From: Umbelopsis isabellina
Taxonomy: Eukaryota > Mucoromycota > Umbelopsidomycetes > Umbelopsidales > Umbelopsidaceae
DNA length: 64,000 nucleotides
Reading direction: 5' to 3'
Assembly (NCBI GenBank): GCA_016758905.1
Contig: JAEPQZ010000002.1
Location: forward strand, 1,711,013 to 1,775,012
Notes under the pieces: model-generated
Told to the model about the DNA's origin: nothing
Databases searched by the model: none
The model's input: the letters and a program-made list of their open reading frames with translations, nothing else
Shown here: positions 14,233 through 64,000 of the stretch, piece by piece
How the letters are laid out: each line of letters starts with the position of its first letter
Numbering within the stretch: the first letter of the stretch is position 1
Made by a program: the position numbers and the translations under genes

Positions 14233-14328
14233 ACACATCTTTCATTGTACGTGTTGTCCATCTTGAGCTGCCGGGTGTTAACACATCTTTCATTGTACGT
14301 GTTGTCCATCTTGAGCTGCCGGGTGTTA
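14233..14328. repeat. Perfect 48-bp tandem duplication in 3' flank
   Basis: Bases 14233-14280 and 14281-14328 are identical. They lie about 150 bases after the FkbM-type gene, in the roughly 535-base spacer before the aquaporin stop. The rest of that spacer (14084-14618) shows nothing specific. Perfect identity means a recent duplication or a sequencing/assembly artefact. Confidence 0.9.
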
Positions 14329-14618
14329 ATCATTTGCACTCAACGCATTATGTTATGAATATCAATCGATGTGTTGTTAACAGATGAATTTATTGATGTG
14401 ACTGATTGACCATGCGGTATAACACAAAACGACCAGCAAGGTACAATGATGATATGGAATTGAAATTTGCAAATTGGTTAATTATTGTTTTCAGATATTG
14501 CTTTCTCCAAAACAAACAAAAAAAAAAAAGAATACAAGAGATAAACTCCAATGATAATATTAGAAGAAGATGATGTTTCTGAATACGGTTCACAGTTAAT
14601 CAATGGCTTTCAGCCAAT

Positions 14619-17530: not shown

Positions 17531-20500
17531 TCATCGCACGAAGCACCGCTCCGCGACAAACCTAGGCCAGGTCGTTTTCTCCAGGTACCACATTTCGGCC
17601 TTTGACACCATCGGGTATAGCTTTCTCCTCTGAATGAGATGATTGCTTACCTGTTGTCCGAAACCTTGTACATCTAATAACACTTGCAGACGAATCTTGT
17701 CTTCATCACTCATGCTTCTTTCATTTGATGTCGTTCCAACCAGTAACGACGACCCCATCGGCCCTCCCTTTTTACCCTTTTTGAATTTTTTCAAAGACTC
17801 TTCGGTCTTTTGAAGCTCGGAAAGCATGTCTGTCACGGTTTGAGTGTACCTACGGAGCATATGAATACGCAAACTCAGCATTGCGCTTTTACCTAATTTA
17901 AAACCTACCTGGAAGTCACTGCCTCAGCCACTGAAGAAGCTATCTCCAGCTCTCGTTGTGTTGATATCCAATCCTTGTTCTGATCACGAACGGTTATATA
18001 TGGCCGGAATATATTGGAAACGTAGTAAGATTGTTCTGACGGCGGTCGTTTGTTGGTGTACCGATACTGAGATGTAATACTCCTGACATTTTTGGCGACG
18101 TCAATACATCGCCGGCTTAGTATGGAAGTCAGCTTTTTTTGTAGCTCAGAAGAGATAGAATCTACAAGAGCCTGGAGCGCGTTATTCAAACTCTCTGGAA
18201 ACAAAGTGTGAGCAATCGATGGTCGTCCTGATATATGATGTTATTCAGACGAATTGCAACACCGTTTTACCTTTAAGGATAGGCTCATCTCGTATCGTTT
18301 CAGGCAACTTCAAAGTGATATTGTTTTCAAATTTTTGCTTAGTCTCGTCTACAAAAATATCGAGATCGTAACCGAGAACCAGCAGTTGACGCAGATGCCT
18401 GGTCTCTTCGACAGACATGTTTTCGCTTGGAGTCGATGGTCTGGCTGGGGTTGTGACCGAATTTGAATTGTCACTGTTACAGGCGGCGAGCGCGCTCGTG
18501 GCCCACAAGCCATAACGCTTTATGAGCTAGAAAGAGCAATTTGTTACATAAATGTTATTTTCACGCGCTTGAGCTGTTGTGAACCAGCATACCTGAAGCG
18601 TCAATTTCCAAAAGCGATGCGACAAGCTGAATATGAAGATTTGATCTGACCAGCATTGATCAATTGCATTCGACACTGCTTTCGTAGCAAGTAGAATCAC
18701 ACCTAAATCGAAATTTAAAGTTAATCATCAATTGCCTTGCTATGAAAGACCCACTCAGGAATATGGCTCACCTTTTGGCTTTATGTCCACTGGCATATCA
18801 AACGTATTGACTTTGAGTCTATTTTCAACAGGAAATACTATTTCCTTGAATCTAAAGTTCAATTGGTCATACGATACAGTTAAAATCATAGCCTTTGTAT
18901 CAACATATCTGTCATAGGTAACGCATTCCAAACTTTACCTGAGTTGGAAATATACAAGAAGCTGCCATCGACGCATGAAATCAGTGTAACTCGAATGGTT
19001 TCTCAGATACAATAAAGACTTTCGTGAGGGTAGTAAGGCTTCAATTTTTGAGACAAAATCGGTCGTTGTGATGTAGTTCTAGATAGCAATATTGGGTCAG
19101 CCGTGATTGTGAGTGTATTTAAAATCATCAGCTGCGCTACCAAAATCTTACTTTGTGAAAGACATCGGGTATACCAGGGGCGAAGATGGAGCTGCATTCC
19201 TTATTAATTCTATCTACCACATCAACCCACAAGCAATCTACCAGGAGTTCGTAATGTGCACCCTTGAGTGTGCGACTGGTCACTTCCATCAATGGTGTTA
19301 ATTGATCTGTGGCGAAGGCAATTATCTTATTATACATTGTCGCGAGCTGATCACCGCTCGCTTGTCCGTTAGTGGTGGGGCTGCCATTATCCAGTGCTGA
19401 ACGAGTGATAATCTGATATTGAAAAGGTTTTAAGATGGGTTGCTGAGTATGTACTACAACAAGTACTTCAACTTACAGTCGATAGCGCTGGGGATATGAT
19501 CTCTTTCCGTATCACTTGTTCGGCTAAGGATGCTTGGTCGAGTAAGGCATACGTTCGCAGACATTGTATCATGGTTGTCCTGACTGCCGCATCATTGGGG
19601 GATGATCTCATTTCCCTCAATGCAGAGGCGAGTGCTGTCGACAAATGACTCTGTAAAATATCTTTGATACGTGTGATCCGCTACAATCGTTGTTTAGAAC
19701 CCAAAAAACATACCAGCCAAACGCTGCCAATTTTAACGTTCTTACCCATTCATTTTCGACGACGAAAGGCAGTCCTTTTCCCCGATTCACCAGGTGCTGC
19801 ATTTGATTGTATTCGACAGCCACTCTTTCGATCTGCTTCTTGTCCAAATTACTGAAATCATGAGCATGTCAGACACTGTACCCTATAGCCGAGAATAGCT
19901 TTTCCTTTTTGCACTCGACAGATCATTACCTTTTGTTTTCATTCTCTTCCACATCTCCACCGATACCTAGCAGAGCCGACTGCCGTTTTTTCCCATCTTG
20001 ATTGATCTGTAAAAGATTCTCGACTTTGGTGACTGATTCGTGGATGTTCAGCAAAAGTTTAAGAGACGCCTATTATATGACATGTTATGAGTTAGTTCAC
20101 AGCTTAGTAAACCACTATCTCCTCATCCAGCGCGCACCTTCTGTTCCCGAACATGAGCGCGTTCTTGCAAGCTACTCTCCAATGCATCAACGACCTTCTG
20201 CATCTCCAAACGAGTTGTCTGTGGTACAAAAAGTCAATACAAGGTTCGCCTCAGCAAACAAATAACCTAACCCTTCTCGTACCTCGACCTCAGAACGCAT
20301 ATCTTTTATAGGGTTCAAGATGTCAGACATGACATTGTCCAAACCCTTCAAGTTTGTGCTCAAATTCACAAAGTCAGCATAATCCCGGTTAATCAGTTCA
20401 ACAAGCTGCGATTTAAGCTGACGAAGGTGGCCGTTGAGTTCAGTCTTTAGGCCAGCAAGGCCCAAGTGTCGTCGATTGGTGAGATAGGCATCGGCATCAA

Positions 20501-20645
20501 AGGTCGCACCGGTGAACGCAGATCGCTGGATAGCATTGCTGGCAAACGGCTCTAGCGATCCTAGTGTATCATCATCTTCATCTGTGTCTCCAAAATCAAA
20601 CACAAACCGTTTCTTCTTTGGATCCTGTGCCTGGAGTGCAGTCAT
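17531..20645 (-). CDS. COG2: Conserved oligomeric Golgi complex subunit 2
   Basis: Twelve exons in gene order: 20645-20283, 20218-20138, 20069-19930, 19851-19746, 19680-19477, 19412-19152, 19078-18939, 18908-18772, 18702-18593, 18526-18271, 18194-17909 and 17849-17531, giving 800 aa. Cog2 is a core lobe-A subunit of the tether that captures retrograde vesicles at the Golgi. The N-terminus has the family block FDADAYLTNRRHLGLAGLK and ELINRDYADFVNLSTNLKGL. Downstream are FMRRWQLLVYFQLR and CWSDQIFIFSLSHRFWKLTL, both typical of Cog2. The last 35 or so residues after DVQGFGQQ do not look like the family, so the true end may be a further exon. Exon 7 starts in a different frame from the longest local open frame; phase and similarity (ITTTDFVSKIEALLPS) fixed it. 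Confidence 0.9.
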
Positions 20646-20727
20646 GACAATGCTAACATGGAACTAAACCGTGGCTAGTCGGTCTTTCATTCTATTTCAT
20701 ATTCACAAATTTGGGGATATTTTATTT

Positions 20728-21360
20728 CTAATGAAAATGGTCATCATGGAACCCTCTGAGCCCACGATATCTACCAAAGATCATTTCACCCACGAAAACA
20801 CCAGCAATAATGCATATAAAGTAGGCGCCATTGCCTGTCATCACCACCAACATGAGCAAGTAACTGATGAAGGTAATAAGCGTGGTAAGAAGACTACGAA
20901 GCGTGTCAGTTCTCCAGTGGAAAGCAGGAACATGAGGAAGCTCTGGCCGATGTGGTGGGTCTGATTTGCTGGTGCGTATTGTCATTACAGGCGATGCTCT
21001 TGCTTCATATTCTGGTGATTTCTCGCTATTGGATGGCTCGCGACGTCTTAAACTATCTATGTTCTCATTGACAGACGCTGTGACCGTCGCTGAAGCTGTA
21101 TCATAGTTGCTGCTACTCTGTTGTATCGCATGAAGTTTTTTTTCTTCCTTCATGATCATCCATGCTTCAAAATAGTATTGCAGTGCCGTTGATCCTCTAG
21201 CCAGAATGGCCAATACGAAAAGCGCAATGCAGCACCCAATATAGGCACCTTCAGAGTCTGGTACCCAGCTTTCAAACCAAAGAGCTTCACCAGTAGATAC
21301 CCAGTGGAAGGTACCCATAGGGCTCATGCTAGACATGTTCATTATGCTCGAGATCGACAA
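20728..21360 (-). CDS. Ctr-family high-affinity copper transporter
   Basis: Intronless, 210 aa. Ctr proteins are homotrimers that import Cu+ across the plasma membrane or release it from the vacuole. The short N-terminus is methionine-rich (MSISSIMNMSSMSPMGTFHW), as expected for copper capture. TM1 lies at about residues 38-57. A long cytosolic loop with serine-rich and charged sequence follows, then TM2 with the MxxxM copper-gating motif (MLVVM) and TM3 with the trimer-packing glycine pattern (GVFVGEMIFG). The C-terminus carries HDDHFH, which may bind Cu+ for hand-off to chaperones. It lies 82 bases upstream of COG2 on the same strand. A reductase and a BIM1-like copper protein follow within 6 kb. 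Confidence 0.93.
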   Translation of the reverse strand: MSISSIMNMSSMSPMGTFHWVSTGEALWFESWVPDSEGAYIGCCIALFVLAILARGSTALQYYFEAWMIMKEEKKLHAIQQSSSNYDTASATVTASVNENIDSLRRREPSNSEKSPEYEARASPVMTIRTSKSDPPHRPELPHVPAFHWRTDTLRSLLTTLITFISYLLMLVVMTGNGAYFICIIAGVFVGEMIFGRYRGLRGFHDDHFH

Positions 21361-22306
21361 GTGACAGTCAAAGGGTAGGTTGGTTATGGCCTAAAGACTG
21401 TTGCTGAGCTCGAATATATGGAGATTTGGCGAGTCAATTTTGCGAAACGACCCAATTTTACTGGCTAAACCTTCTCAGCAACATCCCAAAATTTTGGTCA
21501 AAGGGACGACGGCTTACTGATCAATGTTATTATTGAAAAAAAAAAGGACGTGGCAATAAAGAGAGACGATATATTTTATAGCTATTAGAACTACATGCGC
21601 AAGGATGCGACAAGAGAGACGCGTTCCTCGTCAATGCAATGCATTAGCACAATACGTACATTAACCAGCTTGGGAAGGCTTTATATAGCATTTTGCCGCT
21701 TTGCTAGACTAGGCAACGCTGTTACCGCCAGTGCCGAGATTTCGGAGGTTTGGAACGTCAGCCCCCAATAGATTTGAATGTATATCGGCAAGTTCTTGGA
21801 GGCAACCGGTATTGAGGTTGGCAAATCAATATAACGGAACGTATCTGATGAAACAGACTACAAAGTGGTTTGTAATGCAAGTTAGCTACAGTCCTGTAGT
21901 GTGAGCTGGGTGGATGAATGAATTAATTCGTAGCCAATAGCCTGGCCCCTATATTTTTCAAATGCCCCTCTGCAGCAGCAATTGCTGTCCTGCCTTGTTG
22001 GGACAATTTTGGCGGAGTAGATGAACTCTCAGCTGACAGCACAGCGGCAACGATTGTTTGTAGAACTGCAGTGGTTGAACTTTCCCAGGGTCCCCCTATT
22101 GTATCGGTGACAGCTTACTTGTCTCTTTCATCACGGTTTTCCTCAATATGTTGAACGCAAGGCTACATAATTGTGGGGGGTTAATGAATATCACTTGGAA
22201 AAATCAATTTTTAGCAAGATCTAGTTTGATGAATTCGGCGATGAAAAAACCTAATATCATCTATCAAAGACTGCCCTTGTGCTGTTCTGCTACTCAAAAT
22301 CACGAC
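21361..22306. other. Intergenic between divergent CTR and aminotransferase genes
   Basis: No gene seen. On the minus strand at 21484-21475, ATGTTGCTGA fits the degenerate copper element D(T/A)DDHGCTGD known for fission yeast Cuf1. It sits about 115 bases upstream of the CTR ATG. A match like this is expected about once per kilobase per strand pair by chance, so it is weak. Confidence 0.35.
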
Positions 22307-23952
22307 ATGGTTGACTATTCCAAATTTATTAACGAAAGAAGCAAGGCACGCACGCCGTCTGCCAGTAAGAACCAAGCTGGAGTGAATGCTCCCGAGAAAC
22401 TCGCTATGCACTCTCATTCTAACACCTGAATCCACAATGACAGTTCGTGCGCTATTCAAATACTATGATATACCTGGAATGGTAAGTTGTGCAAGCAGCT
22501 TCTTCATACTCGAGGTATCATTGTATTCATTAATTAATGCCGGTGCTTTGACTGTATCAGATTACTCTTGGTGCAGGATTTCCCAATAAGGATACTTTTC
22601 CCTTCGAGAGCCTCCAAGTTACTCTCAAAGATGGAACCACGTTGAAAATGGATCAAAAATTGTTCGAGTCATCTTTGCAATACAGTGCTACGGTAAGATC
22701 TTGCTTTATCAAATTTTCATGCTATCGCAGATCATTCACGCTCACATATTCAACAGCCTGGTCTTCCAGCTTTGACTGACTGGCTCCGTGAGCTTCAGTT
22801 GGATGAGCATAAACCTCGTAACAAGGATTTTTCCATCTCACTTGGTATTGGATCTCAAGATTTAATTACAAAGGCTTTCGAGATGTTCATTGGACCTGGA
22901 TCCAACATCCTCATCGAAAACCCATCTTATACCGGAATTGTGTCCTTCCTCAAGACTCAACCCTGTAACTTGGTATCAGTAGCTACCGACAAGCAAGGAA
23001 TTGTACCCGAGTCCCTCAACTCCATTTTAGAGAACTGGGAAGATGAGGAAACTCGACCCAAAGTTATCTATCTCATTCCTACCGGCTCCAACCCTACAGG
23101 AGCTACTATTCCAATGGACAGAAGAAAGGCAATTTACAGCATCTGCCAGAAGTACGATATACTTATCATGGAAGATGATCCGTACTACTTCTTACAGGTC
23201 AGTGACTAGATTAAGATAATCTAATTCGATAGGAACCGCATGTACTTATAATTCTCTTTAGTTCTGCGACCCTCGAGTGCCTTCGTTCCTGTCAATGGAT
23301 GTGGATGGTCGTGTGCTTCGTTTCGATAGTTTAAGCAAGATTCTTTCGGCTGGTTTGCGTTTGGGTTGGGTCACTGGTCCTAAGGAGCTGGTAGATAGAA
23401 TCAATATGCATACAATGGTCACCAACCTCCAGGTATCTGGTGTTGCTCAAGCCTTGGCAGCAACTTTGTTGCAGAAGTGGGGCCTTGAGGGCTTTTACAA
23501 GCATATCGAAAGTGTTGGTAAATTCTATGAAGAGAAACGTAATGTGTTTTTGGAGTGTGCCGAGCGTCGTTTGAAAGGTGTTGCAGACTGGACAGTTCCT
23601 CAAGCTGGTGAGTGAATGTGTATTAGGAAAATGCAGAGCAAAAATATGTTACTAACACAGCGTGTAGGCATGTTTGTATGGCTCAAACTTAACGGTATCG
23701 CTGATTCAAATGAGCTAATTACTACCGCTGCTGTCGAAAAGAAAGTACTTGCTGTTCCTGGAGTGGTATGTTACAATATAAGCATTGACATTGCCTAATA
23801 TTTGATTTGCTAATCAATTTTCGAATTCGCAGGCATTTGTACCTTCCGGCGAACCATCACCATATGTTAGAGTATCTTTCAGTGCCGTATCTCCCGAAGA
23901 AATGGATGAGGCGCTGAAGAGATTAGCTGAGGCTATCAAGGAGTCTCAATAA
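22307..23952 (+). CDS. PLP-dependent class I aminotransferase (Aro8/2-aminoadipate/kynurenine type)
   Basis: Exons 22307-22364, 22444-22481, 22561-22692, 22757-23197, 23262-23607, 23668-23765 and 23833-23952 give 410 aa. The N-terminus MVDYSKFINERSKARTPSAI and PGMITLGAGFPNKDTFPF match the Aro8/AADAT subgroup of fold-type I aminotransferases. Other landmarks are NPSYTG, IYLIPTGSNPTGATIPMDRR, EDDPYYFLQ, and the PLP-binding lysine in RFDSLSKILSAGLRLGW (K about 249). The C-terminus has PYVRVSFSAVSPEEM. The enzyme probably transaminates aromatic amino acids or 2-aminoadipate (lysine pathway) with 2-oxoglutarate. Substrate choice cannot be decided here. The short second exon (38 bases) was found by phase. 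It lies between the two metal-uptake genes but need not be part of that function. Confidence 0.9.
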
Positions 23953-24151
23953 ATAAATTTCTGCGGTATACAATTGCTATGCAATGTTTTATTAACTTGT
24001 GATATACATTGGCTCGAATGACCCAAAGAGCTCTTATAAAACCCTCATAATGATCCTAAGGGTTGCGGTCTATGATGAAGGTGTGAAAATATTATATACA
24101 GAATATAGTTATGTGAGGAAAGCTAGTGTACAATTTCACACTGAGCTGCCA

Positions 24152-25811
24152 TTAATATTCAAAGGCTTCTTTGCGGAAGTCAATGATGGTATTCCAGGTC
24201 GAGTATCGCGCAATGCTATTGGCCACACTGGCATTTAGGCTATTGGGACCACACACTAGAACAAAAACACATTTAATATCATTGCCGGCATCAATGTTTA
24301 CATGTCCATCAAAAGTAATATTTACCATATACGCCAGTGGTTGATTGTCGATCATAGATGGCATGATGAACTATTTGCTTGGCGTTCACACGTTGGCCAA
24401 GGTAGAGTTCAACTCTGGAGTCGCCGTCAAAGCTCGGTTCACATGCTTCAGAAGATTGTCGCGATACATACAATTGCACAGACACCGGTATGGAAGATTG
24501 TTTGAATGCTTGAAGACAATCAGAGATATCCTCGCGGAACCAAGACAGGTGTGTCTGGTCTCGTACACACCAAGCAAAAGTGATGGATTGAACATGCTTC
24601 AGATTGTTTTCGATTGCCATGCTTGCCAATTCCTTTAGATGGCGCATAGCAAAAGTCACGCCGGACCCGCCAGCAATGATGACGGTGGTGTCATGAGTTC
24701 CCAACGTGCTTGATGGTGAACCATAAGGACCAGCAACAAATATGGTCAATTCCTCTCCATCTTGGAAAGAATACAGCGCGCGAGTATAGTTTCCAGCCAC
24801 CTTTGCATGCAGTTCAACCCTTCCAGTTTCATTTGATGCTGATGTGATGGTAAAAGGATGCCATTCAAATGACGAGATTTTAGGTATACAGATGAAAACA
24901 TGCTGGCCGGCTTCATGTTTCATGTTGCTGTTGATAACAAGTTGAGTGCACTCGCCTGGGAGAATATGGACTCTGGCTCTGGTTAAATAAGTGTTGACAA
25001 ACCAACCAGCAAATACGTTGATGATGTACAAGATTATGCCGGTAGCGATGTATCGCATTGCATAAGGTGTATGAGTACCGACAGCGACGATGAAAACAAG
25101 GAACAGAAAATGGGTCGACACAAACAGCGCATAGCAGAACCGGCGGATAGGGTACATTGAGAAAAAGAAGATGAAGCACAATGAAGAGTAGGCGACTAGA
25201 CCCCAGTGGACTTTGGGCGTTGCAACTTGAGATGCGTAAAATGTTTTAAATGGCCACCAGGATGTGAGCATAAACGACATATGTACGGTTGTTGTGGCCA
25301 TTAGAGCTGTTCCTAGCAGTCTGTGCAGGTAATTGAGCCGAACATGCGATATGCCGGTAAGTAGTACCAGAGCTGATGATTTTCCGGTTGTTGCAAAGAT
25401 AAATGGAATCATGGCAAGCGAAATGAATCCTGCTCGATCAGAATTAATCTTGAGGTCAACATTCAATATCAAAACGGGCACGATTGTCGAGACAAGGGTA
25501 CAAGCAATGAGGATACCACCCAGAGGAGGCAGTAACACGAAAGAGCCAAGGTATGGAGTCCAGCTGAACTTGTTTACCACCAAAGTCTCCAATCTCTGAT
25601 ATAATAAAAGAGACTTTGTCGGTGGCAGTTCTTCGTTGTTTCCGAGTTTTCGATATCTTCTTCGATTGTTGTAGCAAGATATAGCTGCTATTATGCTTCG
25701 TCGGAAAGCAAGCAGTATAAAGAACCCGGCTAGTACACCACACAACGCAGCACCGTAAGGTGTGTTGACATTGTCAGGCGTAGTATCCATACTCATATGT
25801 GACATATCCAT
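24152..25811 (-). CDS. Ferric/cupric reductase transmembrane flavocytochrome (FRE family)
   Basis: Exons in gene order 25811-24326 and 24255-24152 give 529 aa. FRE proteins move electrons from NADPH through FAD and two hemes to extracellular Fe3+ or Cu2+, preparing the metals for import. The N-terminus is MDMSHMSMDTT, a Met/His cluster like those of copper transporters. The membrane domain has the heme histidines in SHVRLNYLHRLLG, VHMSF and the region of STHFLFLVFIVAVGTHT. HPFTITSAS is the FAD loop, IIAGGSGVTFAMRHL the NADPH loop, and VYVCGPNSLNASVA the C-terminal CGP motif, which is restored only by the intron 24325-24256. It is divergent from the BIM1-like gene across 517 bp. Confidence 0.92.
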
Positions 25812-26328
25812 CTTGGAAGAAGTGTATCTCTTAGGAGATGGAAAGAGGAGAGCAAAGTAGAGGGAAAGGAGATATTAAAGCTCCATACTTTAAGCTGGGC
25901 GGGACAAAATATAACAACTTTAAGGGCCTTGAAAATTGTCAGCATGGGCCAATCACAATGCAACTACGAGCTAAAACTGCTCACGGATAGTCACATTTGC
26001 GAGTCCACCACGCAGTTTGTATTACCCAAAAAAAAAATTACAAGTCATTGTTGTTTGGTATTTACAAGGCGATCACCACCTCAGTCCAGTAATACAATGA
26101 GGAAACGCAGAAATGGCTCACGGAAGCAGGCTGCAAGGTAACACATAGTAAAAAATAGGTAAAAAGATACGCAATTTGTCGGGACTTTGTGAACGGGTGA
26201 CAAAGCCTGGCTCGGGCGATTGACCAATCACTAACGAGCAATACGCCAAAAAAGCTCAGGGACTACATGAGTATAAAATCTGGCTGGATTTCATTAGTAC
26301 TAGACTTCCATACCTTCCTCCTAGAAAT
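25812..26328. promoter_or_regulatory. Shared upstream region of reductase and BIM1-like genes
   Basis: The two ATGs face away from each other across 517 bases. TATAAAA at 26272-26278 is 51-57 bases upstream of the BIM1-like ATG. TTTAAGCTGG at 25889-25898 fits the Cuf1 copper-signal consensus. GAGCAAA at 25850-25856 reads TTTGCTC on the minus strand, seven of the eight positions of the yeast Mac1 element. These words are short and could be chance. Shared copper control is an inference from gene content. Confidence 0.4.
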
Positions 26329-27011
26329 ATGGTCAAGTTCACCTTCTCTATTGCCGCTGTCCTCGTTGCTGCTCTCTCTTCAGCACAGGCCCATTACCAA
26401 CTGACTTACCCTGTACCTCGTGGACCTTTCTCTGAGGACAATGAGCCTATTGGACCATGTGCGACTTACAATGTGTCTCCCAACAGAACTGAGTTCCCTC
26501 TCAGCAAAGGTTTTATGGAGATCAACTCTGAGCATGTCCAATACACCTACAGTGTTCATTTGGTCTTGAATAGCAACCCCAGCGCTGCTGATTTCACTGC
26601 ACAGAATTCTACCGTCTCCAATGGTACTAACAGCTTCCCAGAGCAAGCCTGTCTTCCTGTTGATTTATCAAAGTACTCAAATATTGCTGACGGAACCAAT
26701 GCTACTCTTCAAATTGTCTACAATGCTGGTGATTCTATTCTCTACGAGGTATGTTTCGCAAACTCTTTTTGAGATTAAAAATCGGTTGACACATTGGTTC
26801 CGAATATTAACGCTTTCCATTTTAGTGCGCTGATGTTGTCTTGAAATCTTCACCCGCTGGCTGGAATGCTTCCGCCTGCTCTAACGCAAATGGTGCCTCA
26901 CCTTCCGGCAACGGAACCAGTGGTGGCTCCACTTCATCTGCTAGTGCATTGACTGCCTCTAGTGCATTGGCTGCTATTGGTCTTGTACTTGCCGCCGCTT
27001 CTCAATTCTAA
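26329..27011 (+). CDS. BIM1/X325-like secreted copper protein, GPI-anchored
   Basis: Exons 26329-26748 and 26826-27011 give 201 aa. Residues 1-21 are a signal peptide; cleavage after AQA leaves His22 as the mature N-terminus (HYQLTYPVPRG). This is the histidine-brace position of LPMO-like proteins. The sequence GPFSEDNEPIGPCATYNVSP, NRTEFPLSKGFMEINSEH and the four spaced cysteines match the X325/BIM1 group. In Cryptococcus this group assists Ctr1 in copper acquisition rather than cleaving sugars. The C-terminus has a Ser/Gly/Thr-rich stalk and a hydrophobic tail (ALAAIGLVLAAASQF) typical of GPI attachment. Several N-x-S/T sites are present. The function is inferred from the family and from the neighbouring CTR and FRE genes. 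Confidence 0.88.
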
Positions 27012-28018
27012 GTAACGGTCTCTGATGTTTGATACGTCATACCTCCATGTTCATATACTAAGATAAAAGAAACATCAAAAATAAGCAAATAGCCTTGATT
27101 CGCAATTTTTACACTAAAAAAGATAGACAAACCACCACATATCTTAACATCTATACACGAGTCTCTTTAACAGCCTCTAAATAATAAAACACATCTTCCA
27201 TATCCTTCAAATTGTCTGTGATTTTGCTTATATCATTTGCAGCATGTTGATTCTTTCAGACCTTGTTGTTATGTGACGTCAAAACAGAATAATTTAGGAC
27301 TGGTAAGAGCGGTTAGCTGGGTGTCACCAACGCCTGAACAAAGCTAAATCTTTCTAGAAAAACCACTCCATTATAGTATCAAACCTTCAAATTATGCATC
27401 CTGAAAGTGAAGCGGTAGGGGTTTACCAAGTGCAGGAATGGGAGCTTGATGCGGCGTGCAGCAGTGTTCTGGCGTGAGGCAGGGTGGTGACCAAAGTTTC
27501 AGTGCTTAAGATCTCTCATGCTGAGATCTCTCGTTCGGAATCGTGTTTTCGACAGTCCTTGAGATTTCTCATTCGATATCGTGTTTTCGACGTATCATTA
27601 TAAGCTTGTAATAAGGTTAAAGACCTACGACGTGCAACAGTGTTCTAGTGTGAGGCATGGTGGTGACTCAAGTTTCAGCCCTTAAAATCACTTATTCAAA
27701 TATCAAGTTTTCGACAGATAAATATACTCTTGTAATTGATTTGGGAACCTACATATGATATGCATTTGGCACATTTTAAAATACTAACGCGTTGATACAG
27801 CAAAACATAATGTAGAATTGCAGATTTGTTCAGTAATTTTTTCGGTGGGCCTGGATACAATTTTGGCTCAAATAAAGGCATTGAAGGCAGTTTACCATAA
27901 GGGGAAATTATATGGTCATGGCTTGCATGGGAAGCAGTCACGCTCACACCTTACTTACACCAGCCTCCTTTTCGCTTATCGGCTCTACACTCTTTTGTCT
28001 TTTCTTTCGAATTACAAC
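27012..28018. other. Intergenic holding a decayed repeat
   Basis: Apart from the repeat at 27455-27750 no gene is visible. The last 100 bases are CT-rich and probably form the promoter of the gene starting at 28019. Confidence 0.5.
27455..27750. repeat. Diverged tandem repeat, unit about 176 bp, with nested 38-bp repeat
   Basis: A unit beginning CGTGCAGCAGTGTTCTGGCG at 27455 returns as CGTGCAACAGTGTTCTAGTG at 27631 and can be followed for over 100 bases with substitutions and deletions. Inside the first unit, a 32-base stretch ending GTGTTTTCGAC is repeated at 27522-27553 and 27560-27591, and a worn third version ends near 27715. It has no coding potential and looks like an old minisatellite or element fragment. 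Confidence 0.65.
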
Positions 28019-30562: not shown

Positions 30563-31575
30563 ACCGAAAGTACTCTGATATTTAAAATGTAGACACACAA
30601 AGAACCAAAAGAATAATAATACTATAGAATGTGCCACAAGAAGATCAAGACTTGTTGTTCCTGCCTCTTAAACACGCTGTTTTTAGACTGATTGATAAAC
30701 CAAGATCGCAGTATGATCTATGTAAAATAGGAGACCCTGAACTAAAATGGTCTGTAAATGCATGTTATATTGAAGGCATTCCTCTACAAGGTATTCTGAA
30801 TATATGCAGATCATTGAGTTTTGGTTAAATTTTTAAGAGGCGGTAAACGGCGGGGGTTATTGGGATATGCTAGTGTCAGATTAGCCTCAGAACCTGCTAA
30901 CCTTTAGCACGATTTTCATAACACTGAATCTCGGTATGATGTATTGACTTTGATTATGCTATAGACCCTAACGTAGCAGCTTTTGGAAAGATCTAGTGCT
31001 TTCATGAAAGTCATATAAAGTCTAAGTGAAGCGCACGGTGCACCTTTGTTGTTTTTTTTTTTTTGCTTGCCTAACAAGGAAGACGACGAGCTGCAATAGC
31101 AGTAGTCCGCTATCTGTATCCATTGCCCGCCAATTTGATCAAGACGAATACAAAGCTCATGATTGATATGCATATGGGTAGAGCATTTTAAGCTGGAAAG
31201 GAGCGTACAATCTTGTACGCTTGATCGCCGTTTAGAGAATTGATTGGATATAGCATGATGTCGTGGCAATTTCAAAACTAATATTGGTCAAAACAAACAC
31301 TACCATGCCTCACAGGCCTTGAAATTGTGGTTACTGGATGTGTAAGCATGTGTCTATTAGATTACCTGATATTTATCATAGTGCCTCCAACTCTTGAACC
31401 GTAGTCTATCGTAGGAGCTTCCAGCGGGGCTTCTGATCCCATATGACGCATCCAATGGAACAAGAGCGAAATAAATAGAAAGGGTTTGTGACGTTGTTTT
31501 TCCTGGCAAGATTTTTTTAATAGTCGATTTATTGTCTGCCTTAGCCAGCTCTCTCTTAATCCTTTCTCCAAAGTC
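30563..31575. other. Intergenic, nothing specific seen
   Basis: The 1 kb between GUK1 and SSE1 has only short unsupported frames on either strand. It should include the heat-shock gene promoter, but I could not point to a clear heat-shock element. Confidence 0.5.
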
Positions 31576-57332: not shown

Positions 57333-58449
57333 ATGATACTAGGCTTATCTCCTTAAGGAAAGCAAAGACTGTAAACTGAAACAAATCATATCCAAACAAA
57401 AAAGCAAAAAAAAAAAAAATGACTTAGCATATAAGAACTTGAACCATCGTGCGCATCATTAATAGCTGTAGATGATTTTCGTGAAAATAAATGAAACTCC
57501 CATTGACTTATGTACCAGCAAATTGAATTGTTCGTAGACGCGATGAACTGCAAATAGACTTCCTTACTATTACCTGAGGCAGTCTGTATATATAATGCAT
57601 CTCAACTTACATATCTTTGAATACAACCTTCTTTGGATTGATTAGTGTATCATTATGTCAAGTCTAATGATTGCAAATGAGCAAGTGATAATGGAAAGTA
57701 AACCATAATGAATTTCTGACATCTGTTGCACTTTCGGTTGGCTTTTTGCCTTACCTATAGCTAATTCACTTTCTAATTTTTCCTTATTTGTTATGTAAAA
57801 GGCAAATTGAGAACTCAGAAAAACCAGATCACCGTCACCAATAAATGCATTTAGCTTGCGAGACTAATGAATGATAAGATTTCTACGCCTTCCGCAGTGA
57901 GGAAATTTGACTTGGATTTACTCGGTGATTTTGTACGGCGAATTCAACGCAGTTGCTCGAACGATGTTTCATACATTGTGATTCAAAGCAGAGTTGAATT
58001 TCGAGCCGTTACTGGACTCTAAGCAGCAGACAATTAGACATATTTGAGTCTGAGGTCATCTATGAATGAAACTGGCGATGCCGAGCCTCGTCACAATGTA
58101 GCCAAGTATATATTAAAGTCTCAAGATGGAAATTTGCCAATGTTAAGGTTTCGCATTTTTGCGTAATCAGGGTCCAAGCTGTTGACATATTGACAAGTGG
58201 TCAAATCATATATACAACTATATACCATCATTGTTCATAGCTGTCAGGTCATTTGAAATAATGCAAAAGGCACTTGAGATATGTAAGAAGACATGAACCA
58301 CTTAGTTATAAGTTTCCAATGATCTGGAAATTCCACCACTGCAATCCAATTTAGGTTACCACATACAGGCGTCTGGGATTGAAAAGACATGCCGCAAGTA
58401 CATAAATTCGTCAATCTTTTAGTAAACTTGCGTACTGCTCTTTCCCCTG
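57333..58449. other. Intergenic, nothing specific seen
   Basis: The 1.1 kb downstream of NSP1 starts with an A-rich run near 57408. No gene or repeat was recognised. Confidence 0.5.
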
Positions 58450-59571
58450 ATGATTGCCAAATCCTTATTAGCCTTGGCGGCCCTGACCGTTACTGGAGCT
58501 TTTGCCGCATCTCCTGAATCTCGCTACGTTTACGTTGGTTCATATGGCAACAACCTCTCCGTATTCACTGCCAATCCAGAAAGCGGCAATTTGACTCTTG
58601 TGCACCAGGCTGAGTCACTCGCTCCTTCTTATCTTGCATTCCACCCAAGTAATAAGTACTTGTATGCCTGCAACGAGCTCAACAACACATACTCGGCATT
58701 CAAATTATCTAAAAATGGGTCACTCCAATTCATCAACAAGAAGGATTCGTTGGGCGAAGCTCCTGCTCACGTTGGAGTTCATCCTTCTGGTAAATGGCTA
58801 TTGGGTACTTCCTATAACAATGGCACCTTTTACACCTATCCGATTGGTTCCGACGGCTCAATTGGTGAAGCGAACCGAGAAGTTAAGGATCCTGCCATAA
58901 ACGGAGCTAATCTGGCTTCATTGCAAGGACATGATTCTCCACACGCTCATCAAATGATCGCCGCCTACAATCAATCGCAGGTTCTCGGAGTTGATTTGGG
59001 TATTGACCGCATCAATTTATTCAACATTGAGAGTGATGGAACTTTATCTAAGAGTAACATACAGCCATTCATAAACATCAACAGCGGTGCTGGTCCTAGA
59101 CATGGCATTTTTGGAAAAGATGGAAAATTCTTCTACTTGATAACTGAGGAAGGAAACATTGTTATCGTCTTCAAGTATGATGCCAAATTAGGCACCTATG
59201 TATTTGAGCAGAGCGTGGATACTCTCCCTGCAAACTTTACAAAAGTTTCATATGGTGGAGAGATTCGCATTTCACCAGATTGGGCAACCCTCTATGTCTC
59301 TAACAGAGTATTTGGTCCTAATGAAGGCAGCATTACTGTCTATAAAATCAACCCAACAACCGGAAAGCTTTCGTGGCTCCAGAATATCGGCAGTGCCGGT
59401 CAATACCCACGTGGTCTTAACATTGACCCAGAGGGTAAATTTGTGTATAGTGGAAACCAGAATTCCAACACCATTGGCGTCTTCAAGGTCGGATCCGAAG
59501 GAAAGCTGCGATTGTCTGCAACTATCAACCACCCTTCTCCTTCTGACTTCCAGTTTGGACCATCTCATTAA
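58450..59571 (+). CDS. Secreted seven-bladed beta-propeller lactonase-family protein
   Basis: Intronless, 373 aa. Residues 1-19 are a signal peptide (LLALAALTVTGAFA). The rest matches the lactonase / carboxy-cis,cis-muconate-cyclase propeller family (PF10282 type): SRYVYVGSYGNNLSVFTANP, LAFHPSNKYLYACNEL, GHDSPHAHQMI, DLGIDRINLF, GAGPRHGIFGKDGKFFYLIT, and QYPRGLNIDPEGKFVYSGNQ. The PHAHQ and D-LG-D motifs are the conserved family landmarks. Members open lactones such as 6-phosphogluconolactone or muconolactone. A secreted form suggests an extracellular substrate, not the pentose phosphate pathway. Several N-glycosylation sequons support secretion. The substrate is not known. Confidence 0.88.
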   Translation: MIAKSLLALAALTVTGAFAASPESRYVYVGSYGNNLSVFTANPESGNLTLVHQAESLAPSYLAFHPSNKYLYACNELNNTYSAFKLSKNGSLQFINKKDSLGEAPAHVGVHPSGKWLLGTSYNNGTFYTYPIGSDGSIGEANREVKDPAINGANLASLQGHDSPHAHQMIAAYNQSQVLGVDLGIDRINLFNIESDGTLSKSNIQPFININSGAGPRHGIFGKDGKFFYLITEEGNIVIVFKYDAKLGTYVFEQSVDTLPANFTKVSYGGEIRISPDWATLYVSNRVFGPNEGSITVYKINPTTGKLSWLQNIGSAGQYPRGLNIDPEGKFVYSGNQNSNTIGVFKVGSEGKLRLSATINHPSPSDFQFGPSH

Positions 59572-61642: not shown

Positions 61643-63416
61643 ATGCAATATAAAGCACTATTGATTTTATTTTACTTTTACCTAATCAGCTGCTTCGTAC
61701 TCGCAGTATCCGCATTCTCCTTCAACCATTCACTTAACGCGGTGGAGATAATGACATTGACGCTCATAAACATGATCATGACGATGACAATCATGAGCTT
61801 CATAATATATATGACGACGACGGCAAAGGTGAAGATGACAACAGACATGATTACCATGATCATGAAGATAATATCAATTGTAGCGATATTATCTCCAAAG
61901 CCTCTGTCACTGTCGTTGTTGTTGGCAAGACCTACAAAATTCCTTGCAAAGTTGACATCAACAACATTTGCTTACATGCTTGTGGTAGAGGTGCTACTGA
62001 TTCCGAAACTGCCACCATCGGGTTCGGGACTGGAACAGGTGCGATTACCTCCGCAATCGCATGTGGCACTGGTATCAACATTATTCCTTTACAATCTATT
62101 TGTGCTCAAGCAACTGTTTGCTGCGATACACAATGCTCTTCAAATCAAAAGTGTATCAACGGTATATGAACATGTTGTGATAACAACTCTTGTGGCATTA
62201 GCTGTACATCATGTCCAACGGCCAACATTGTACATTGACAAATGATGGCACAAGTTATCAATGCGCATGTAACAACGCACCCAATTCATGCGGATTTCAA
62301 GACTCCTGTTCACCTTGCCCAACTCCTGAAAATGGTCAAGCTACTTGCTTGTCTGGTACATGCGGTATTTTGTGTAACAATGATTATGCTAGCTGTAATA
62401 ATGCGTGTGTCAATGAACAGACCCACATCAGCAATTGTGGAGCCTGTGGAAACCTATGCTCAGCTCCCCCAAATGGGCAAGATATTTGCCTGTCTGGAGT
62501 GTGTGGTATCTCATGTAACAGTGGCTATACTAGCTGCAATGGTACATGCGCCAATGAACAGACCGACATCAGTAATTGTGGAGCTTGTGGAAACACGTGT
62601 ACAGTCCCAGGCAATGGCCAAGCTACTTGCACATCTGGAACATGTGGCATTTCATGTAACAGCGGCTATAGTAGTAGCAACATTACAGGCGTTAATGAAC
62701 AGACAGACATCGATAATTGTGGAGAGTGCTGAAACATTTGTCCAGTCCCTGGAAATAGTATAGCAACTTGTACGACTGGAGTATGCGACATTTCATGCAA
62801 CATTGGCTATACCAATTGCAGTAGTGCATGTGTGAATGAACAAACAGACGGCAATAATTGCGAGAGTTGCGGAAATACATGCAATAATTATCAGCATTGC
62901 AGTGGAGATTATGTGTTTGCTCCCGACCCAAGCGTCAGCCCACCATTATGTAGTAATCGAAGCATTAATTTTGGCGATTTAACAGCATATGGAACATCTG
63001 TTCCCAATTATTATCAGACTTTCATTTAGTATAATTTTTTCATTTCATATTCAGAAGTTTAAAATTACTTCGCAGGAATAGGAACGATATCTCGTAACAT
63101 TCCGTGGTCTATATTTGGTATAGACGTCTTAACCACTTTGTCTGTTACATTCACAGCATTCAGAAATGGTGTTCGGGTTGGACAGTCTGTTGCATCAACC
63201 CTTGGAACTTTTGTATTTCCTCAAAAGAATTTCAGCATTATTGATAGCTTAAATGTTTTACCTGGCTCTGCCCTGTTCACTCAACATCTTGTATTGTCCA
63301 ACCTGATAGTTGCGCTTGAATGCAAATCAAATATTCTTCTATCATTTTTAGAAATCAATACTTCCTTTCTATATTCTGTTTATTTCCATTCAGAAAAAGA
63401 TCAAATTCCCAGATAA
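61643..63416 (+). pseudogene. Broken gene for a secreted His/Asp-rich, Cys-repeat protein
   Basis: The pieces lie in three successive frames. A signal peptide comes first (MQYKALLILFYFYLISCFVL, 61643 on). Next, in another frame from about 61741, is a His/Asp-rich segment (DIDAHKHDHDDDNHELHNIY) and a domain with VGKTYKIPCKVDINN and CLHACGRG. A TGA stops this frame at 62167-62169, yet similar Cys-rich sequence continues (CCDNNSCGISCTSCPTA) before a frameshift near 62205-62215. Then come 47-residue Cys repeats with a second TGA at 62730-62732, where the repeat has Gly (GGA to TGA). After the repeats a beta-type domain (RNIPWSIFGIDVLTTLSVTF) follows another stop. Unannotated introns could explain some of the shifts but not the repeat-internal TGA. 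Confidence 0.6.
62289..62858 (+). repeat. 141-bp tandem coding repeats (Cys-rich, STIG1-like)
   Basis: Units begin at 62289 (147 bp), 62436, 62577 and 62718, with a partial one from 62859. The translated unit reads CGACGNTC..P.NGQATC, then SGTCGISCNSGYTSCNGTC, then NEQTDISN, resembling the Cys spacing of plant stigma-specific STIG1 and related bacterial/fungal secreted repeats. Unit 3 has lost two cysteines (SSSN, ITG) and unit 4 has the TGA, so decay is under way. Confidence 0.8.
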
Positions 63417-63770: not shown

Positions 63771-64000
63771 CTGGCAGAGCTAAGGGCTGGCAGAGCCATC
63801 ACACTAACGGCTGGCAGAGCCGTCCGCAGGGCGGGTGCCAGGTGAAGTGAGAGGGGCCATCTTCATATAGGCACGAATGGGGGGGTTACTGACTGGCAGA
63901 GCCGTCCGAAGGGCGGGTGCCAGGTGAAGTCAGGCTGGAGACACTTCATATAGGCACCGAATGGGGGGGTTACTGACTGGCAGAGCCGTCCGAAGGGCGG
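63771..64000. repeat. GC-rich minisatellite running off the window
   Basis: The core CTGGCAGAGC starts at 63771, 63787, 63811, 63893 and 63977. From 63811 a complete unit is visible with periods of 82 and 84 bases: core, then CGTCCG-AGGGCGGGTGCCAG, then CTTCATATAGGCAC and a G7 run. The composition is far more GC-rich than the rest of the window. The array is cut by the window end, so its length is unknown. It could be a minisatellite, or the end of a mobile or subtelomeric element. Confidence 0.8.

Follow-up and report, generated by a model that had tools for sequence, protein, structure and literature searches.

In Cryptococcus neoformans, copper limitation induces the glycosylphosphatidylinositol (GPI)-anchored protein Cbi1/Bim1, which interacts with Ctr1 and whose mode of action in copper uptake is called unknown in the same report (PMC9258870). 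A homology model of Bim1 based on LaX325 placed the copper in a His brace that includes the N-terminus, together with an Asp located on a loop rich in Gly; mutagenesis confirmed that the residues of this site are important in copper import (PMC7529816). The X325 proteins themselves emerged from a hunt for new lytic polysaccharide monooxygenases (PMC7924993). In Aspergillus fumigatus, the genes of a GPI-anchored protein, of the transporter CtrA2 and of a metalloreductase adjoin one another and were reported to be co-regulated (Afu6g02800/02810/02820; PMC2481287), Afu6g02810 being ctrA2 (PMC8425704). Here, we describe a locus in a 64,000-nucleotide stretch of Umbelopsis isabellina contig JAEPQZ010000002.1 (the window; its introns, gene content and G+C of 41.6% agree with a fungal origin), in which genes for a Ctr-family transporter (CTR), a FRE-type reductase (FRE) and a BIM1/X325-like protein (BIM1-like) lie inside 6.3 kb, i.e., within four consecutive genes of which the remaining one encodes an aminotransferase. 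This locus is probably a linked module for high-affinity copper uptake by capture, reduction and import, and its likeness to the C. neoformans system would lie in a copper protein of the His-brace plus Asp kind acting with a Ctr transporter, as Cbi1/Bim1 does with Ctr1 (PMC9258870, PMC7529816).

Several described arrangements come close to that of this locus. The A. fumigatus homologues of the Pseudogymnoascus destructans reductase VC83_03096 (FRE), transporter CTR1a and BIM1-like protein BLP2 (VC83_03095) are given as XP_747795.1, XP_747796.1 and XP_747797.1 (PMC13208438, Table 3), and since these accessions are consecutive, they would represent the same adjacent trio, which suggests that the GPI protein Afu6g02800 is a BIM1 homologue. 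In P. destructans, BLP2 and VC83_03096 rise at the protein level when copper is withheld (log2 fold change 3.57 and 3.59), the corresponding values being 7.18 for CTR1a and 5.88 for CTR1b (PMC13208438). BLP2 and this FRE7-like reductase bear consecutive locus tags, from which we infer that their genes adjoin as at our locus (PMC12113139, PMC13208438); however, the two CTR genes of that fungus carry unrelated tags (VC83_00191 and VC83_04814). In Aspergillus nidulans, freC and ctrA were found to have a common promoter with a Mac1 site, and a metalloreductase gene adjoins the ctrA orthologue in 110 of the 127 species screened (PMC7705104). A study of Fusarium oxysporum reported the divergent pairs ctr3/fre9, ctr1b/fre12 and fre10/FOXG_02393 with Mac1 sites, binding of Mac1 to the divergent ctr/fre promoters, and rescue of a mac1 mutant under copper limitation by overexpression of ctr3 and fre9 (PMC11563359). 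FOXG_02393, uncharacterised in that study and divergent from fre10, is itself a candidate BIM1-like gene. The first-pass annotation of this DNA had regarded the linkage as undescribed, which does not hold for fungi generally: the CTR/FRE/GPI trio as well as the CTR-FRE and FRE-BIM1 pairs are printed for Ascomycota or follow from printed identifiers. Because much the same trio appears adjacent in Aspergillus, the present locus adds another case to a known arrangement and does not represent a new system. What is possibly new is the arrangement of the genes and the phylogenetic depth, i.e., Mucoromycota, for which the trio as one cluster is not named in the titles or abstract openings among the matches listed.

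We assembled the gene models manually, using open frames and GT..AG introns; from left to right the order is COG2, CTR (-), aminotransferase (+), FRE (-) and BIM1-like (+) (Table 1). The interval 20728..27011, singled out in the first-pass annotation, is bounded by the far end of CTR on the left and that of the BIM1-like gene on the right, and holds all of the genes named there, and the divergence of the reductase and BIM1-like genes is likewise confirmed. In A. fumigatus, no other gene interrupts the trio, and the locus numbers place the transporter between the other two, whereas here the three copper genes are not all neighbours: FRE and the BIM1-like gene adjoin and are divergent, and one unrelated gene stands between CTR and FRE. 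The A. nidulans freC-ctrA pair and the Fusarium pairs ctr3/fre9 and ctr1b/fre12 resemble the present locus in linking a transporter with a metalloreductase; however, in those fungi the common promoter, with its Mac1 sites, is that of CTR and FRE, whereas here it is that of FRE and the BIM1-like gene. The chance that one CTR, one FRE and one BIM1-like gene fall within four consecutive genes was simulated in 200,000 genomes for each of three sets of gene numbers. The result was 2e-5 for 2 CTR, 10 FRE and 3 BIM1-like genes among 9,500, 5.5e-5 for 5, 10 and 5 among 12,000, and 9.5e-5 for 6, 15 and 8 among 15,000, an estimate made post hoc and with assumed copy numbers, the first set following P. 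destructans (2 CTR, 10 FRE, 3 BLP) and the others being larger guesses. For comparison, a 14-species table gives 1 to 4 CTR genes per fungal genome, with 3 in Rhizopus oryzae (PMC4196481).

The identities of the three genes, their motifs, the ligand alignment with LaX325 and the physical linkage are direct observations. The BIM1-like protein matches the Pfam profile BIM1-like_dom (PF20238; 7.3e-29, 101.5 bits against a cutoff of 27), and a second Pfam match, GP40 (0.0029), is below cutoff and falls on the low-complexity tail. Among the 25 PDB matches listed, one is a credible relative, LaX325 (6ibh; 9.4e-21), the other 24 being weak matches to designed armadillo-repeat and related entries. The alignment with LaX325 has 56 identical columns out of 150, and places His22 (residue 1 of the mature protein), His69 (48) and Asp135 (114) opposite LaX325 His1, His49 and Asp122, where the ligand types are those of PMC7529816 and the residue numbers come from our own alignment. 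Asp135 was taken as the Asp of the Gly-rich loop because it lies within NAGDS, opposite TGGDG of LaX325. Residues 1-19 are hydrophobic and are followed by AQA directly before His22, suggesting that the signal peptide is cleaved before this histidine. The protein has 4 Cys, and its tail consists of a Ser/Gly-rich stretch and a hydrophobic C-terminal segment (181-199), which by appearance looks like a GPI signal. Viral contigs scanned with the BIM1-like, CTR, FRE and Hsp70-like proteins yielded no relatives, in a scan that reaches close relatives only.

FRE contains Ferric_reduct (PF01794, 1.1e-19), FAD_binding_8 (PF08022, 3.2e-15) and NAD_binding_6 (PF08030, 7.7e-16), all above cutoff. It also has two His pairs (163/177 and 234/247), which we take to be bis-haem ligands, as well as HPFT (318), GGSG (381) and CGP (497), presumably the motifs of FRE enzymes. 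Six hydrophobic regions exceed a hydropathy threshold of 1.4 (about 26-44, 100-118, 133-151, 201-222, 226-252 and 251-276). The helix with His163 and His177 fails this threshold and was placed, on our assumption, by analogy with NOX2; with seven helices, the N-terminus would face the outside of the cell. This N-terminus, MDMSHMSMD (25785..25811, - strand), contains four Met and one His among its first eight residues, a pattern reminiscent of the Met motifs of Ctr proteins, as judged by inspection of this one protein. CTR matches the Pfam Ctr profile over residues 11-189 (PF04145, 3.1e-36; 125.6 bits against a cutoff of 25.3). It has Met at positions 1, 3, 6 and 9, the MxxxM motif of transmembrane helix 2 (MLVVM, 164-168), the GxxxG motif of transmembrane helix 3 (GVFVG, 181-185), a hydrophobic segment at 30-48, a second stretch at 151-190 with room for two helices, and a His-containing C-terminus (FHDDHFH). 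The sole Ctr structure matched in the PDB is that of Ctr1 (6m97), a distant and weak match (2.2e-4). A Ctr-type protein with MxxxM, a flavocytochrome reductase and a secreted protein with His as its mature N-terminus had been recognised earlier from the letters of this DNA, and all three stand: the first by its profile match and M164-M168, the second by its three Pfam domains and motifs, and the third by AQA before His22 and the alignment of His22 with LaX325 His1, the cleavage itself being predicted.

The module could work as follows. The BIM1-like protein, secreted and GPI-anchored at the cell surface, would capture Cu2+ in its His/His/Asp site. FRE would move electrons from cytosolic NAD(P)H through flavin adenine dinucleotide (FAD) to its two haems and reduce Cu2+ to Cu+. 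The CTR trimer would then import Cu+ via a Met-lined pore. FRE and the BIM1-like gene are probably driven together from their shared 517-bp region by a copper-starvation factor of the Mac1/Cuf1 type, and CTR would belong to the same regulon. The copper specificity, the surface location, the co-regulation and the hand-over of copper between the proteins are what we infer. The idea of a reduce-capture-import pathway, put forward in the first-pass annotation, gains support from the profile matches, from the conservation of the ligand positions and from published work on genes of these kinds in other fungi.

The two intergenic regions were scanned for Mac1, Cuf1/ACE1, CuSE and GATA consensus sites and for shared k-mers, the CTR region as 21343..22436 (i.e., up to the aminotransferase start before its revision, see below) and the FRE/BIM1 region as 25812..26328; expected counts were derived from the density over the whole window, and the comparison of observed with expected counts is a descriptive one. 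Apart from that of Fusarium Mac1, the consensuses are those that we presume for these factors. The Fusarium Mac1 consensus was taken from PMC11563359. The Mac1 core TGCTCA, an ascomycete motif which may not apply here, occurs once in the FRE/BIM1 region, at 25978 (0.36 expected), and is absent from the CTR region (0.77). HTHNNGCTGD was found once in the CTR region (1.04 expected) and twice in the FRE/BIM1 region (0.49), DTDDHGCTGD once in each (0.65 and 0.31), TTTGCGA, first noticed by eye, also once in each (0.17 and 0.08), and TTTGCKCA with at most one mismatch four times and twice (2.41 and 1.14), while GCTG occurs 16 times in the CTR region against 9.97 expected. The regions have two 9-mers and one 10-mer in common, against means of 6.7 and 1.5 for random pairs. 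These small counts neither support nor exclude copper control, and the site of the host factor may differ.

Several observations weigh against a copper-uptake module. Copper-responsive motifs show no clear enrichment in either intergenic region, the full TTTGCTCA occurs in neither of them, and the two regions have 12 8-mers in common, where random pairs have 23.9 on average. CTR, separated by an unrelated gene, shares no promoter with FRE or the BIM1-like gene, and may be a vacuolar transporter like Ctr2. The mature part of the BIM1-like protein encoded by exon 1, folded alone, gave no usable model (predicted local distance difference test score, pLDDT, 40.8). In A. fumigatus under copper excess, ctrA2 was reported to fall 4.85-fold, and Afu6g02820 is named among the genes raised more in the wild type than in the aceA deletion (PMC8425704), so that co-regulation within this trio does not simply extend to all conditions.

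A single conserved cluster is made doubtful by A. nidulans ANIA_03209 (named AnctrA2 in that report), which is only 11% identical to A. fumigatus CtrA2 (PMC6354809), so the CTR-FRE linkages within Aspergillus may not be orthologous; together with the non-joint expression, this low identity implies that such linkages could have arisen more than once. It is a speculative and rather doubtful extension that the CTR-FRE-BIM1 linkage is ancient and predates the split between Dikarya and Mucoromycota, with pairwise promoter sharing reshuffled between lineages, and that the FRE sequence MDMSHMSMD, lying on the outer face, could hold Cu+ once it has been reduced and pass it straight to Ctr. The interest of the locus lies in the trio, which may be of great age or may have formed several times and in which promoter sharing varies, and in the Met-rich N-terminus of its reductase. 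If genes for BIM1-like proteins, reductases and transporters proved to be linked repeatedly in distant fungi, this would be independent evidence that they belong to a single pathway; reductase-assisted release of copper from the His-brace site would then be a step open to testing.

Three other explanations were weighed. It is unlikely, though the best of the three, that FRE and the BIM1-like gene alone work as a pair, by way of their common promoter, and that CTR is incidental, perhaps a vacuolar Ctr2-type transporter which mobilises stored copper. Just these two genes share a promoter, an unrelated gene parts CTR from FRE, CTR and its N-terminus are short, and in P. destructans FRE and BLP2 are paired by tag while the two CTR genes have distant tags; however, transporter, reductase and GPI protein adjoin in A. 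fumigatus (PMC2481287), the reductase adjoins the ctrA orthologue in most of the species screened (PMC7705104), and a random three-way co-occurrence is improbable under the assumed copy numbers. Less probable still is that FRE reduces iron or, as an NADPH oxidase, produces superoxide and that the BIM1-like protein has the cell wall as its target, with no joint role in copper. FRE has NOX/DUOX relatives in the PDB, its best matches there being NOX2 chains (8e-21), Candida albicans FRE8 was described as an NADPH oxidase (PMC5728582), and loss of Cbi1 also alters the Cryptococcus cell wall (PMC9258870). However, NOX2 is a solved member of the superfamily, FRE matches bacterial ferric reductases too, and the FRE genes of the Ascomycota clusters are reported to be copper-regulated. 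In addition, both regions hold fewer HGATAR sites than expected (in the CTR region 1 against 3.93, in the FRE/BIM1 region 0 against 1.86), which lends no support to iron control of the GATA type. That the three genes came together by coincidence, without shared regulation or function, is the least credible, for although no promoter motif is clearly shared, another, unrelated gene lies among the three and their proximity was spotted post hoc in one window, the simulated chance is 2e-5 to 9.5e-5 per genome under the assumed copy numbers and a like combination exists in A. fumigatus.

The gene between CTR and FRE is most likely a passenger. Its start was moved upstream from 22437 to 22307 by an extra exon (22307..22364), which was sought because the alignment with human KAT2 pointed to a missing N-terminus. 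The match to human KAT2/AADAT improved from 6.9e-116 for the short model to 5.8e-120 (residues 3-409), supporting the revised start. The shorter model matches PF00155 (2.3e-30), and the protein is far closer to human KAT2 than to its best Aro8-type relative among fungal structures (1.2e-65). We take it to be an enzyme of the housekeeping type that acts in the metabolism of lysine or kynurenine. That it is of the animal kind and not like Aro8 may agree with an early-diverging fungus, although this is no proof of such a position. In F. oxysporum, the aminotransferase FOXG_06143 is among the Mac1-dependent genes (PMC11563359), and membership of the present enzyme in the copper cluster was considered and rejected as a weak lead: it is a clear KAT2/AADAT relative, and no tie to FOXG_06143 was found. 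Its earlier description as a possible passenger is the better reading.

Table 1. Features of the locus (positions in the window).
Feature	Position	Strand	Basis
COG2 subunit gene	open frame 20190..20663	-	COG2_N 8.3e-19
CTR, Ctr-family copper transporter, single exon, 204 aa	20728..21342	-	PF04145 3.1e-36
Intergenic region, CTR / aminotransferase divergent, 964 bp	21343..22306		gene models
Aminotransferase, KAT2/AADAT type, 7 exons, 410 aa, probable passenger	22307..23952	+	PF00155; human KAT2 match
FRE, FRE/NOX-superfamily metalloreductase, exons 24326..25811 and 24152..24255, 529 aa	24152..25811	-	Pfam, motifs
FRE / BIM1-like divergent promoter region, 517 bp from start codon to start codon	25812..26328		gene models
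BIM1/X325-like protein, exons 26329..26748 and 26826..27011, 201 aa	26329..27011	+	PF20238, LaX325 match

Downstream of the BIM1-like gene, at a distance of 0.4-0.7 kb, lies a 77-nt direct repeat (27452..27528 and 27628..27704; 79% identical) with additional 32- and 37-nt repeats nearby, and its core has one weak third match elsewhere in the window (31296..31313). Other repeats in the window include a perfect 48-nt tandem duplication (14233..14329), an 84-nt tandem repeat of 2.3 copies which reaches the window end (63811..64000; 91% match), and a 141-nt tandem repeat of 3.9 copies (62330..62883), i.e., a 47-residue unit, within a Cys-rich repeat region (62202..63029) with open frames 62202..62732 and 62733..63029. 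One long open frame at 58426..59568 encodes a 7-bladed propeller lactonase (PF10282, 8.9e-80), whose hydrophobic N-terminus looks secretion-like by eye.

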